DNA of 64,000 nt from Armatimonadota bacterium (GTDB lineage: Bacteria > Armatimonadota > UBA5829). Position 1 is the stretch's first letter. Every line of letters begins with the position of its first letter. Where the stretch lies: positions 1 to 64,000 of the forward strand of contig JBDKUO010000053.1 of the NCBI GenBank assembly GCA_039679645.1. Reading direction: 5' to 3'. The position numbers and the translations under genes were made by a program. Positions 49,238 to 54,149 of this stretch are shown one piece after another. The notes below the pieces were generated by a model. The model worked only from the letters and a program-made list of their open reading frames with translations, did not search any database and was not told the origin of the DNA.

Positions 49238-49897
49238 TCATTTCTTTCGTCGAATGATCATTTTGCCAAGAACTCCCAGCCCTCCAAGCAAAACGACAAT
49301 ACTCGATGGTTCGGGTGTGCACAAAGTGCTGACGCAGAACCTGTCCAGGTAAGCAGTCTGTCCTGCTGCAACATTGAAGTGCCAGACAAACTCTTCCCAG
49401 TCCGGGTTCGGCATGATTGTGCCTGTGAGGTTGTCGGTTAACCAATTACCCGAGTTTACCTTGTTGATTATTTGCCAACTGGTTTCGTAGCCTGCCGGTG
49501 CGACCAGATTGAACGAGTCTGCATTCGGAAACGCATAAACGGCTTCATCCCACACATATTTTATGGGATTGTTGTTGTCGTAGTTGTTGACATGGAAGAT
49601 CAGGTCAACGACTACATTGCCGGTGCCGTTTGTGTTATCCACACCAATGTAGCCTGCTTCATACCAGTGCAGTGAATTCACATCACCTGTGGTTCTTATG
49701 TCGTCACATATCCATTCTCCCTCATCCCAGATTGGGCCTATGACGGTTTCAGGTTTCTGCCAATTCGAGCTATTGAAGTTCCAGCACAGCGTTCTTTGAG
49801 GATTGAACGGCGGATTGTTTGTGTATGCCTGGGCGGTCGACATTGCAATTATGCCGATCAGGCAGCACAACACAACAATAAAGCAAAACCTATTCAT
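49238..49897 (-). CDS. exported PEP-CTERM sorting-domain protein
   Basis: A 219-aa protein with a signal peptide (MNRFCFIVVLCCLIGIIAMSTAQA), a beta-rich extracellular domain, and the C-terminal signal TPEPSSIVVLLGGLGVLGKM followed by RRKK. That pattern marks it for the exosortase/archaeosortase system, which usually works together with exopolysaccharide export in diderm bacteria. No exosortase gene lies in this window. ATG 49897 has AGGAGAGG upstream; a GTG one codon earlier is possible. The mature domain is not recognised. Confidence 0.85.
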   Translation of the reverse strand: MNRFCFIVVLCCLIGIIAMSTAQAYTNNPPFNPQRTLCWNFNSSNWQKPETVIGPIWDEGEWICDDIRTTGDVNSLHWYEAGYIGVDNTNGTGNVVVDLIFHVNNYDNNNPIKYVWDEAVYAFPNADSFNLVAPAGYETSWQIINKVNSGNWLTDNLTGTIMPNPDWEEFVWHFNVAAGQTAYLDRFCVSTLCTPEPSSIVVLLGGLGVLGKMIIRRKK

Positions 49898-50324
49898 CAC
49901 TTTCCTCTCCTTTCTTGTGTAATGCGCAATTCGTTTATTGCAGCGATATCTTTTGCCTGGACCACCCCCTTAAGCATTTTTTGCGTGTTTGTAATAAGCT
50001 GCAGAGAGTCGTAAATGATAAATATATAATCATTACTGTGACACATATGGTTGAGCATGGCGTATTATCACACAGATAATGAGGCTTGTCAAGGGGTAAG
50101 TCGAAAGAAAGTGTGTGCAAAGGTGTTGTAAATGGTATGCAACTACCTTATGATCTTAAGGTTGCTGTGAAATAATGTTTTTGTGGATGAGGGTCTTTTT
50201 CTTCGATAGACTGCCCTAGAGTGGAACAAATTCTGCGGGGATGACGCTTATGTTCGGGCTGGATATCCGATCCAGCCCGAAACAGAACTGTGCGATTTTA
50301 ATAGTCGAGATTACTGCTCATCTA
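49898..50324. other. long intergenic region
   Basis: No gene of recognisable type is seen in these bases. A family A hairpin (TTCGGGCTGGAT at 50253-50264 pairing with 50270-50281, followed by ACAGAAC) is the only clear structure; its second hairpin is degraded. The promoter for the PEP-CTERM gene should lie in the first 150 bases. Confidence 0.6.
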
Positions 50325-50432
50325 CTATTCCGTCTCCGCATGCTTAGCCTTATGCACTTCGCGCCGGATAAGTGAGTGCTGCAGCCAATCCATCATTAAG
50401 CGCCATATTGAAGACTCAAGTTCGTAAATCAA
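50325..50432 (-). CDS. possible 35-residue small protein downstream of the GspE-type gene
   Basis: A TTG at 50432 is preceded at 6 nt by AGGAGG and opens a 35-codon frame to TAG at 50325. The peptide (MIYELESSIWRLMMDWLQHS...) reads as an amphipathic helix with an acidic start and a basic end. It lies 78 bp after the stop of the anti-sigma/GspE gene on the same strand and may be the third gene of that operon. It is too short for any family call; the strong ribosome site is the main evidence. Confidence 0.4.
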   Translation of the reverse strand: MIYELESSIWRLMMDWLQHSLIRREVHKAKHAETE

Positions 50433-50510
50433 CACACACCTCCTGCGAAATGATTAAGTCATCAGACTACATATCTCTATAGCCCGGCAGTGGGTTTGTG
50501 CTAAATTCAC

Positions 50511-51842
50511 TCACTCAGTTAAAGCCAATACTCTTAGCGCCTCTTCTGCTGTAGTCAGCCCATCGAGCACCTTACGGCGCGCATCTTCTTTGATGGGCAT
50601 AAAACCATTTGAAATTGCAGTTCGAAGCAGTTCATCGATTGGAGCGCCTTCTCCAATCATCTCGCGAAGATGCCTGTCGATGACCAGCAGTTCATATATC
50701 GCCGCTCTGCCTCTGTAGCCCGTTCCATGGCATTTTTCACATCCTTTACCCTTGAAGACTTCATGCGCTTTCATATCATCTTCAGTGATTTTCAAAGCCT
50801 TGAGAGCCGGGATCACTTCAAGCACACGCTCTTTGCAGTCAGGGCACACACGCCTAATAAGCCGCTGGTTCATTGCGCCGAGTAGGGCTGCAGATATTAA
50901 AAAGTCCTCGATGCCCATATCTCGCAGCCGCTGGATCGCACCGATGCTATCATTCGTATGCAATTGTGTAAGGATCAAATGACCGCAGATTGCCGCTTCG
51001 ATAGAAATCTCGGCGGTTTCTTTATCCCTGATCTCGCCGACCATTATTATGTCTGGATCATGACGCAGGAAAGACCTCATCGCGGCAGCAAATGTATACC
51101 CCACTTTCTTGTGCACCTGAGTCTGGTTCACACCATTCATAAGATATTCAACAGGATCTTCAATGGTCAAAATTTTCCTGTCCGGATTATTAATTTCAAG
51201 GAGCACTGAATAAAGAGTCGTGGTCTTACCTGAACCAGTCGGACCACCGGTAAGAAATATTCCGCCTGGCTGATGAATCAAATCTCTGATTGCTTGGAGG
51301 TGATCAGGATACATATATATCTTGTCGAGGCCGATCAGCGGCACGCTTTTATCCAGTATGCGCATCACAATCCCTTCGCCATAGACAAACGGGCAAAAGG
51401 CTACTCGGATATCATAGTCCTGACCGTCGAGTTTCCACGGCATCCTGCCGTCCTGTGGAAGCCTTGTCTCCGACGTGTCCACATCAGCCATCATCTTAAT
51501 CCGCGTAACAATGCCTATGCGCTCAGCAGAATCGATCGACATTACATCGTGCATCACTCCGTCGATTCGATATCGCACTCTCAGCATATTATCTCTCTGC
51601 CCTTCCAGGTGGATATCCGAAGCCTTGCTTTTGATGGCATTGTCGATGATATCATCGACTTTCTTTACAATGGCCTGCTCGGATGCGGCCTCTGTCCACG
51701 ATAGGAGCCTGCGCGCACCCTCGAGTTCGTGGCGGCATGCAGGGCATCTGGCAAGATGCTCCTCGAGCTTGATTTTCTGATCCTCTGAAAGCTCGCCTTT
51801 CAGATAAGCGATAATCTCTGTCCTTGCCTGTTCGCAGTTCAT
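50511..51842 (-). CDS. zinc-finger anti-sigma domain fused to GspE/PilB-type secretion ATPase
   Basis: A 443-aa fusion. Residues 1-45 are a zf-HC2 anti-sigma zinc domain with C3 and H29-x3-C33-x2-C36 (HLARCPAC). Residues about 58-443 are a type II secretion / type IV pilus ATPase that lacks the usual large N-terminal N1 domain: SKASDIHLEG, Walker A GGPTGSGKT (199-207), the Asp box ILTIEDPVEY, Walker B DIIMVGEIRD (264-273), the His box QLHTND, and the tetracysteine site CPDC...CEKCHGTGYRGR. All ATPase motifs appear intact. The gene starts 2 bp after the stop of an ECF sigma gene, with GGGAGGAA as its ribosome site, so the two are made together. The zinc domain should bind and hold that sigma factor. 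Other pilus or secretion genes are absent here. Confidence 0.9.
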   Translation of the reverse strand: MNCEQARTEIIAYLKGELSEDQKIKLEEHLARCPACRHELEGARRLLSWTEAASEQAIVKKVDDIIDNAIKSKASDIHLEGQRDNMLRVRYRIDGVMHDVMSIDSAERIGIVTRIKMMADVDTSETRLPQDGRMPWKLDGQDYDIRVAFCPFVYGEGIVMRILDKSVPLIGLDKIYMYPDHLQAIRDLIHQPGGIFLTGGPTGSGKTTTLYSVLLEINNPDRKILTIEDPVEYLMNGVNQTQVHKKVGYTFAAAMRSFLRHDPDIIMVGEIRDKETAEISIEAAICGHLILTQLHTNDSIGAIQRLRDMGIEDFLISAALLGAMNQRLIRRVCPDCKERVLEVIPALKALKITEDDMKAHEVFKGKGCEKCHGTGYRGRAAIYELLVIDRHLREMIGEGAPIDELLRTAISNGFMPIKEDARRKVLDGLTTAEEALRVLALTE

Positions 51843-51844
51843 GG

Positions 51845-52417
51845 TTATTCCTCCCGTAATAGGATTTTGAGCGTATTTACAGCAGCATGCATTCTCGACT
51901 TCACCGTCCCCACAGGAATCTCAAGCAGTTCGGCAATCTCGACATATTTGAGACCCTCAAAGTGCGAGAGAGTAAAGACCATCTTCTGACCCTCCGGCAG
52001 CATGGTTATAGCCCGGCGCATCCGAAACCTGCGATACTCCTCCATCAGGTGCACCTCAGGTTCTATGCGCTCATTTGCACGGATGTTTTCAAAGGGCTTT
52101 CGCCCCAGGCTGTTCTGATGGGCCAGTGATATTTCCTCGGAACGGCTATTTGCTTTGCGGCGCTGCGAGAGGTAATAGTTCTTGGCGATCTGGAAGATGA
52201 ATGTGGAGAACTTTCCGGTAGGCTCGTAGCGGTCGCGCGCCCGGTAGAGCCGCAAGAAAGTCTCCTGCAGATAGTCCTCCGCCGTGTCCTGGTCCCAAGT
52301 GAGTTGGAACAGGAACCTGCGGATAGGCTCCGAGTACCGGTTGTAGAGTTCGTCAAAGGCGCAATAGTCACCGGTCTTGACAAGCTCCATCAACTCTGCG
52401 TCCGTCAGTACTTCCAT
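51845..52417 (-). CDS. ECF sigma factor coupled to the anti-sigma/GspE fusion
   Basis: A 190-aa ECF sigma factor. Region 2 (about 15-90: FDELYNRYSEPIRRFLFQLT, DYLQETFLRLYRARDRY, FIFQIAKNYYLSQRRK) and region 4 (about 130-188: LPEGQKMVFTLSHFEGLKYVEIAELLEIPVGTVKSRMH) are complete. ATG 52417 has GGGAGGAC upstream. The stop codon is 2 bp before the start of the zf-HC2/GspE gene, the standard sigma/anti-sigma gene order. Its regulon is unknown. The divergent secreted protein gene at 52596 shares the 178-bp upstream region and is one candidate target. Confidence 0.92.
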   Translation of the reverse strand: MEVLTDAELMELVKTGDYCAFDELYNRYSEPIRRFLFQLTWDQDTAEDYLQETFLRLYRARDRYEPTGKFSTFIFQIAKNYYLSQRRKANSRSEEISLAHQNSLGRKPFENIRANERIEPEVHLMEEYRRFRMRRAITMLPEGQKMVFTLSHFEGLKYVEIAELLEIPVGTVKSRMHAAVNTLKILLREE

Positions 52418-52560
52418 TCGTCCTCCCGACAGCGTTTACATATGATAGAACGCTTTGGAAGCAAAAATGTTCGATCCACAGCCTTTTATACTTCGCGGGC
52501 GAATGCCCCGAAGGTTGAATATATTCGCGCGCAGAGAACCGTACCGTTTCCTCAGTCATT

Positions 52561-52595: not shown

Positions 52596-54149
52596 ATGAA
52601 AAGAGCACTCATATTTGTCGCACTTATAACCATTGCTTTGGCCTCATGCGCTTTTGCCGATTCGCCTGCCGACTGCGCGGGTGTTATCCGTGTATTCGGG
52701 GACCAGTCCAACTGGATGAGCATGTGTTTTATGGTAGGTGACGGCAGTTGGGTCGTGACGACTCTCGACTCGATAAGCGAGAAAGTCGGTACAACTGCCA
52801 CTCATCTGATCCGTTATCCGGTCTTCGTTAGTGCGTATACCGGCGCGGCATATCAGTGCGAACTCAAGGCTTACGATAAAGACCTCAATATAGCCCTGCT
52901 CAAACTCCCGATAAGCGGATTTCCCGCAGTCACATTCGCTCAATCGAGTGACTTTTCCAAGGCTGCTATGGGCACTATGGGTGAGCTTATGAGCGGCGAT
53001 CCTATCGGCAATCGCTGGCCCACTGATATCTACGGTGTGACTCGTGAGAAGTCGGGCGATTCATATAAGCTTGCAGTCGGTAGTTGGAGCGCAAACAAAA
53101 TATTCGTCACTGAGATCGGCAAATATTACTGGGCGTTTTTAATCGATATAAGTCCGGCTCAGCCTATCCCAAACGGCTCGATTGTCACGCGCGGGCCGCT
53201 TGTTGTCGGCATGTATCTGAACCGCATGGTAATCACAGGCGGCAAGGATGATCAGATATTCGGCAGATGTTCCATCTCCACCGCAATCGCGCGCTGGCTC
53301 GGCGAGCATGGCGTTGACTCTGCAATGCTTTACTCGTCGCCTTCTGCAACAGTCAAACGCGATGCCGATGCGGATACGGTCTTTCAACTCCAGGCGCGCA
53401 TATATTCCATGATCGGCGCATCGAAACCGGACCTTGCGCAATCGAGCGCTCAGTCTCTTGTCAAGCTGCGTCCGTCAGATGCCCAGCCGCACCTTGTCCT
53501 TGGAATCGCGCTTACCGGGCTCGGCAAATTCGATGAGGCCATAAGTGAGTTCGACGCAGCCGCGAAGATCGATCCCAAGCTGCCGACCCTGCGCACCAAT
53601 CGAGCGCTCGCACTGCTCAGGCAGAAGAAAACCGATGAGGCCGAAAAGGAACTGATAAAGGCCGTCGAGGAAGCGCCGGGTGATGTCCGCCCGGTGGCAG
53701 CTCTTGCCGATTTTTATCTTGCAGACGAGAAAAACTACGAGTCATCTCTCACTTATGCGAAGAAGGCAGTCACAATGGCGTCGGACAGCCCGGCCGCTTA
53801 TTTGCTGCTGGCTCGCGTGCAGAAACGTCAGAAAAACTATCAGGACTCAGTCGACTCTATCGGCAAAGTTCTCCAGATGGCCAGAGACTGGCCCGATGCA
53901 TGGTATGCTCTCGGCTCCACATATGAAGAAGCAGGAGATTACGAAAAGGCCGAAAAGGCCTATCGCACACTCGTTGAAAAACAGCCCCAAAACCCAGACT
54001 CGCTGCTGACCCTTGCCTCATTCCTAGTCGATCGCGGCAAGAAAGATGAAGCATCCGAAGTTATTGATAAAATTCGGGCGCTCAACCCATCCAAGGAAAT
54101 ACTTGAATCAGTCCAGACTATAGAAAAAAAGGCCGGCAGCAACAAGTAA
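52596..54149 (+). CDS. exported protease-like protein with TPR repeats
   Basis: A 517-aa protein with a signal peptide (MKRALIFVALITIALASCAFA). Residues about 22-240 resemble a trypsin-fold domain (GVIRVFGDQSNWMSMCFMVG, WVVTTLDSI, YDKDLNIALLKLPISGFPAV), but the catalytic serine motif GNSGGP is replaced by PNGSIVTRGPLVVGMY and the histidine region reads VVTTLD. It is probably inactive. Residues about 260-505 carry six or more tetratricopeptide repeats (LVLGIALTGLGKFDEAISEF, AWYALGSTYEEAGDYEKAEKAY). A periplasmic scaffold role is likely. It is divergent from the ECF sigma operon. Confidence 0.82.
   Translation: MKRALIFVALITIALASCAFADSPADCAGVIRVFGDQSNWMSMCFMVGDGSWVVTTLDSISEKVGTTATHLIRYPVFVSAYTGAAYQCELKAYDKDLNIALLKLPISGFPAVTFAQSSDFSKAAMGTMGELMSGDPIGNRWPTDIYGVTREKSGDSYKLAVGSWSANKIFVTEIGKYYWAFLIDISPAQPIPNGSIVTRGPLVVGMYLNRMVITGGKDDQIFGRCSISTAIARWLGEHGVDSAMLYSSPSATVKRDADADTVFQLQARIYSMIGASKPDLAQSSAQSLVKLRPSDAQPHLVLGIALTGLGKFDEAISEFDAAAKIDPKLPTLRTNRALALLRQKKTDEAEKELIKAVEEAPGDVRPVAALADFYLADEKNYESSLTYAKKAVTMASDSPAAYLLLARVQKRQKNYQDSVDSIGKVLQMARDWPDAWYALGSTYEEAGDYEKAEKAYRTLVEKQPQNPDSLLTLASFLVDRGKKDEASEVIDKIRALNPSKEILESVQTIEKKAGSNK

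Follow-up and report, generated by a model that had tools for sequence, protein, structure and literature searches.

A sigma factor gene is followed by an anti-sigma/ATPase fusion

The window, by which we mean the entire 64,000-nucleotide stretch analyzed here (positions 1 to 64,000 of contig JBDKUO010000053.1), comes from an Armatimonadota bacterium whose genome is 3.41 Mb and 99.7% complete. Its reverse strand carries a cassette with the following features, listed in the order in which they are read:

52446-52472 (-): predicted autoregulatory ECF promoter, GAACATTTT-N10-GCGTTCTA, about 28 bp before the sigma start codon
51845-52417 (-): ECF sigma factor gene, 190 aa (Sigma70_r2 3.2e-15, Sigma70_r4_2 1.2e-16)
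50511-51842 (-): fusion gene, 443 aa, anti-sigma domain joined to an N1-less GspE/PilB-type ATPase core (Pfam)
51708-51842 (-): anti-sigma domain of the fusion, residues 1-45, at the place of N1 in GspE/PilB; ligands C3, H29, C33 and C36
50532-51689 (-): T2SSE ATPase core of the fusion, residues 52-437, with N2 and catalytic domains and CxxC...CxxC (Pfam, Foldseek)
50325-50435 (-): small ORF, 36 codons, GTG start, AGGAGGTGT ribosome-binding site; conserved in genome G003

The 190-aa protein is short, contains regions 2 and 4 and scores above the cut-off for TIGR02937, which identifies it as an ECF sigma factor. The sigma gene comes first and is separated by 2 bases from the fusion gene, whose GGGAGG ribosome-binding site lies within the last codons of the sigma gene. 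In the 443-aa fusion, Pfam places zf-HC2 at residues 3-37 (3.8e-10, 40.1 bits against a cut-off of 22.2) and T2SSE at residues 52-437 (1.2e-121). Open reading frames, strands, coordinates and Pfam domains agree with the original prediction, made from the DNA letters and their translations, of an ECF sigma gene followed after 2 bp by an anti-sigma/ATPase fusion. They also agree with its view that the fusion lacks N1, since similarity to GspE/PilB starts only at residue 46-52. The HxxxCxxC motif on which that prediction had based its anti-sigma domain does belong to one, but the pattern is better described as CHCC, made up of C3, H29, C33 and C36.

The fusion and its sigma partner recur across Armatimonadota

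A first search of 40 relatives found the fusion in three congeners and in one genome each from the same order, the same class and the same phylum. Across 291 Armatimonadota genomes, a scan with a profile of the first 115 fusion residues, followed by ORF checks, revealed 23 fusion loci, and the 22 genomes that carry them span 13 family codes; this and the other phylum scans scored at most 23 candidates per genome. An ECF-like sigma frame lies immediately upstream of the fusion, with a gap of 0-135 bp, in all 22 loci where this could be assessed, and the 23rd locus is at a contig end. The question raised by the original prediction, whether an ECF gene always adjoins the fusion, can thus be answered in the affirmative for every assessable locus. 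The fusion is neither an assembly artifact nor confined to a single genome, being present in 22, and the domain does not sit at unrelated positions; the original prediction had named both outcomes as counting against it.

The fusion locus of G044 is present likewise in Armatimonadetes bacterium CG2_30_59_28 (G325), a member of the same phylum set, which shows this set to be Armatimonadota. Apparent frameshifts in the fusion of G264, G057 and G242, and in the sigma gene of G266, may reflect assembly error or decay. One locus that looked fusion-like at first (L073, in G241) encodes an ordinary N1-bearing ATPase. Congener G001, which is 98% complete, has no fusion-type match. The same profile, which does detect the Armatimonadota fusions (control), found no fusion among at most 23 candidates per genome in 880 genomes of three other phyla, those to which an Acidobacteria MAG (297 genomes), a Planctomycetota MAG (294) and a Verrucomicrobia MAG (289) belong, nor was the fusion found in about 33 further genomes from several phyla.

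The N-terminal domain resembles zinc anti-sigma factors

The profile of the N-terminal domain retrieves the anti-sigma factors RslA (4.3e-05) and RsiW (4.4e-04), with DdvA, ChrR and RsrA as weaker matches. AlphaFold2 models residues 1-72 with a pLDDT of 87, and the nine best structural matches to this model are all anti-sigma domains, with Z from 7.0 to 3.4 (RslA 7.0, RsiW 6.7, MucA 6.5, RskA 6.0, ChrR 4.2, RseA 4.0, DdvA 3.4). The first unrelated match has a Z of 3.2, and the absolute values are modest, as tends to be the case with small helical domains. By both profile and fold, the nearest solved structures are the anti-sigma domains of the membrane zinc anti-sigma factors RsiW and RslA; the fusion, in contrast, lacks any transmembrane or extracytoplasmic sensor (hydropathy maximum 1.34).

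The overall arrangement is that of the soluble zinc anti-sigma factors ChrR, RsrA and RshA, which likewise have an N-terminal zinc helical domain and no membrane segment and are encoded directly after an ECF gene. The fusion differs from them in its C-terminal module, which is an ATPase core where theirs is a cupin or nothing, and in that the zinc ligands are dispensable in one fusion family. Three features by which zinc anti-sigma (ZAS) proteins are recognized are present: the zf-HC2 domain with its Hx3Cx2C motif, the anti-sigma helical fold and the ECF neighbor. C3, H29, C33 and C36 are found in 18/19 aligned fusions; none of the four remains in G245, nor in G242 from the same family (both have family code f36). 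The f36 fusions without zinc ligands (L189:9902-11227 and L193:2163-3472, both on the reverse strand) retain an ECF-like partner.

We also found that distances among the sigma factors track distances among the anti-sigma domains once the ATPase signal is removed (partial r 0.53, permutation p 0.002, 18 pairs), a co-variation that is in part due to shared linkage. From sequence comparison and structural models, we consider it very likely that the fusion is the cognate anti-sigma factor of the neighboring sigma.

Catalytic residues are relaxed in about half of the fusions

The full fusion is modeled by AlphaFold2 with a pLDDT of 91 and a pTM of 0.79, and its core is 45-47% identical to the PilF/PilB crystal structures (Foldseek E 1e-51 to 1e-48). 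Like the extension ATPases PilB, PilF and GspE, it has N2 and a catalytic core, Walker, Asp and His boxes, and CxxC pairs. Unlike them, it has an anti-sigma domain in place of N1 and a sigma gene as partner, about half of its family has lost catalytic residues, and it stays below the NCBIfam equivalog cut-offs (494.8 against 630.25 for GspE; 450.3 against 675.65 for PilB). An N1 domain is not universal among GspE/PilB ATPases (PMC10191384). The host encodes four further full-length GspE/PilB-type proteins (frames of 579-609 codons) in addition to several PilT-like matches, and the fusion is 42-50% identical to the resident PilB/GspE proteins.

The T2SSE core of the window copy is complete, with Walker A and B, Asp box and His box, whereas 10/19 fusions fall short of this set. 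K206, E228, G269, E270, R272, D273 and H295 do not vary among 78 ordinary ATPases, PilT included; among the 19 aligned fusions, 10 have at least one catalytic change, and the window copy has none. E270 is kept in 14/19 fusions, and R272 and D273 in 15/19 each. Loss of E270 (5/19 fusions) has no counterpart among the ordinary ATPases (0/78; Fisher p 1.8e-4). The N2 arginines R133 and R146, together with R305, R327 and R330, are unchanged in 19/19 fusions. Because these arginines are kept throughout while the catalytic residues are lost in part, selection may still maintain ring formation and nucleotide binding where it no longer maintains hydrolysis. The window copy itself could be an active motor, since all of its catalytic residues are intact.

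Some cassettes carry additional ATPase and platform-like genes

In G022, the fusion is followed by a second N1-less T2SSE protein, which in the ATPase tree is sister to the G022 fusion ATPase. In G045 and in the second copy in G236, the third gene encodes T2SSF cytoplasmic domains fused to a T2SSE domain with a degraded Walker A:

L190:1-1593 (-): third gene, T2SSF without helices plus T2SSE
L192:8373-10226 (+): third gene, T2SSF without helices plus T2SSE

Pfam finds two T2SSF stretches in the G045 protein and one in the G236 protein. Their T2SSF domains are those of GspF/PilC platform proteins, but unlike these they lack membrane helices (hydropathy maxima of 1.49 in G045 and 1.94 in G236, against 3.24 for a real PilC control) and are fused to an ATPase. 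We know of no protein like these, with helix-less T2SSF domains fused to T2SSE.

In a published AlphaFold-Multimer model, the N-terminal domain of the ATPase contacts the Cyt domains of the platform (PMC10191384), and in the fusion the corresponding domain is the direct neighbor of the anti-sigma domain. The sigma/fusion pair of G002 and a complete type IV pilus operon (genes named by eye) are transcribed away from each other; the window copy has neither a pilus operon nor other machine genes beside it, and G002 alone among the contexts read has such an operon. The G002 operon, the T2SSF third genes of G045 and G236 and the published contact are the only hints of a platform-linked signal, such as the original prediction had suggested in proposing that docking or activity of the ATPase on a type II secretion or type IV pilus platform might control sigma release.

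The ATPase parts are compatible with a single origin

A tree of 78 ATPase domains unites 18/19 fusions with three third-gene ATPases in a single group (SH-aLRT 99), which lies beside ordinary Armatimonadota PilB/GspE. The remaining fusion, G236a, falls just outside the 18-fusion clade in the free quick tree. Multiple independent fusions were considered and set aside: a tree constrained to unite all 19 fusions and the three third genes has a likelihood higher by 13.6 (p-AU 0.71), so a single origin is not rejected. One origin of the ATPase parts followed by many losses is the simplest reading, although several long branches call for caution.

The sigma operon is likely autoregulated

The motif GAACMTTTT-N10-GCRTTCTA lies upstream of the sigma gene in the window, G002, G003, G004 and G016, 24-45 bp before the start codon. 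Each of these five fusion-bearing genomes has one exact match, located before sigma, and the promoter match was never equaled in 100 shuffles of the upstream region. The motif is not matched in congener G001 even when one mismatch is allowed. Several of the more distant members, but not all, have a -35 element of the GAACC type at a comparable distance. An ECF-type promoter before a sigma factor's own gene is the usual sign of autoregulation; because the window and four relatives share such a promoter, the operon is likely autoregulated.

The promoter search revealed no convincing target besides the cassette itself. An ECF-like site, GAACATTTT-N10-GCGTCTTA, precedes a 5'-nucleotidase-C-like gene (domain by eye) at G000:C44:13852-13878 (L173:1501-1527) and is conserved in three genomes of the genus, with a related site in a fourth (G000, G003, G004 and G002). 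We rejected this gene as a regulon member. It is probably the target of a different sigma factor, because its -10 element differs and G005, a genome in which we found no fusion, has a similar site ahead of the orthologue.

The ATPase core may act as the input module of an anti-sigma switch

We propose that the cassette encodes a switch made of an ECF sigma factor and a soluble anti-sigma factor in which a recycled GspE/PilB-type hexameric ATPase core serves as the input module, and we assign this statement as a whole a probability of about 0.68. From homology, operon pairing and co-variation, we infer that the N-terminal zinc helical domain binds the neighboring sigma and withholds it from RNA polymerase. 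N2 and the catalytic core would probably still form a nucleotide-dependent ring. The anti-sigma domain occupies the place of N1, directly before the first N2 helix, and a change in the state of the core would therefore shift or mask the sigma-binding helices. The trigger could be the nucleotide state, ring assembly or contact with GspF/PilC-type cytoplasmic domains; by moving or masking these helices it would free the sigma, which is predicted to transcribe its own operon from GAACMTTTT-N10-GCRTTCTA. Such an arrangement suggests that a component of a molecular machine was recruited as a sensor for switching genes. More tentatively, the motor core and, in some lineages, the helix-stripped platform copies could make up a soluble complex, with the anti-sigma domain replacing N1, that couples ECF transcription to the assembly or activity of a pilus or secretion machine; we regard this extension as possible but somewhat doubtful.

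Information could also flow in the opposite direction, from transcription to the machine, if the fusion were a working pilus or secretion motor that free sigma, or its absence, gates or sets in amount. The intact catalytic motifs of the window copy and several relatives fit such a motor, as does the position of the G002 pair opposite a complete type IV pilus operon. However, the host already has its four full-length GspE/PilB proteins, and most contexts are without pilus genes. Gating of the motor by sigma, which the original prediction had also entertained, is further disfavored because 10/19 fusions have lost residues that are invariant in the 78 ordinary ATPases while the zinc ligands stay in 18/19, and we judge it quite improbable. 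A different possibility is that the zinc anti-sigma domain is itself the sensor, through thiol oxidation and zinc loss as in RsrA and RshA, with the ATPase ring as a scaffold that multiplies and localizes anti-sigma domains. Conservation of the ligands in 18/19 fusions points this way, and oxidative stress is the usual input of soluble zinc anti-sigma factors (PMC8999054). Yet G245 and G242 have kept both fusion and sigma without the ligands, and the ATPase core and its arginines are conserved beyond the needs of a plain scaffold, which makes this reading unlikely. We give a similarly small chance to the idea that the fusion joins mixed hexamers with ordinary PilB/GspE and so reports whether the motor is free or engaged; it draws on the 42-50% identity to the resident proteins, on arginines that are invariant where the catalytic Glu can be lost, and on third genes that are more T2SSE copies.

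The soluble anti-sigma factors described in a review (PMC8999054) take their input from redox chemistry, from partner switching or from a mechanosensing complex. If the switch proposed here is correct, its conserved anti-sigma factor, with a hexameric AAA-type motor core as its base, would represent an input module of a new kind and would physically and directly connect a pilus or secretion motor with RNA polymerase. The literature searched holds no description of an anti-sigma/ATPase fusion, in keeping with the original prediction, which knew of no such architecture; a mention in some supplementary table is possible. The lineages in which catalytic residues have decayed and the anti-sigma domain persists provide a natural experiment, in which binding would therefore be separable from hydrolysis.

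A small ORF and the genes flanking the cassette

The small ORF at 50325-50435 corresponds to the possible third gene of 35 residues in the original prediction, although it has 36 codons. Its counterpart in congener G003 shares 68% identity over 31 aa (E 5e-9) and an identical AGGAGGTGT ribosome-binding site, with third-position changes in excess. G003 is the sole congener with it, and the other relatives searched lack it.

Downstream of the cassette, 49238-49900 (-) of the window encodes a PEP-CTERM-like exported protein (by eye). Upstream of sigma and divergent from it, 52596-54149 (+) encodes a secreted, tetratricopeptide-repeat-like protein (by eye). A homologue of this gene is not so placed in G003 and in G004 again lies divergent from the cassette.
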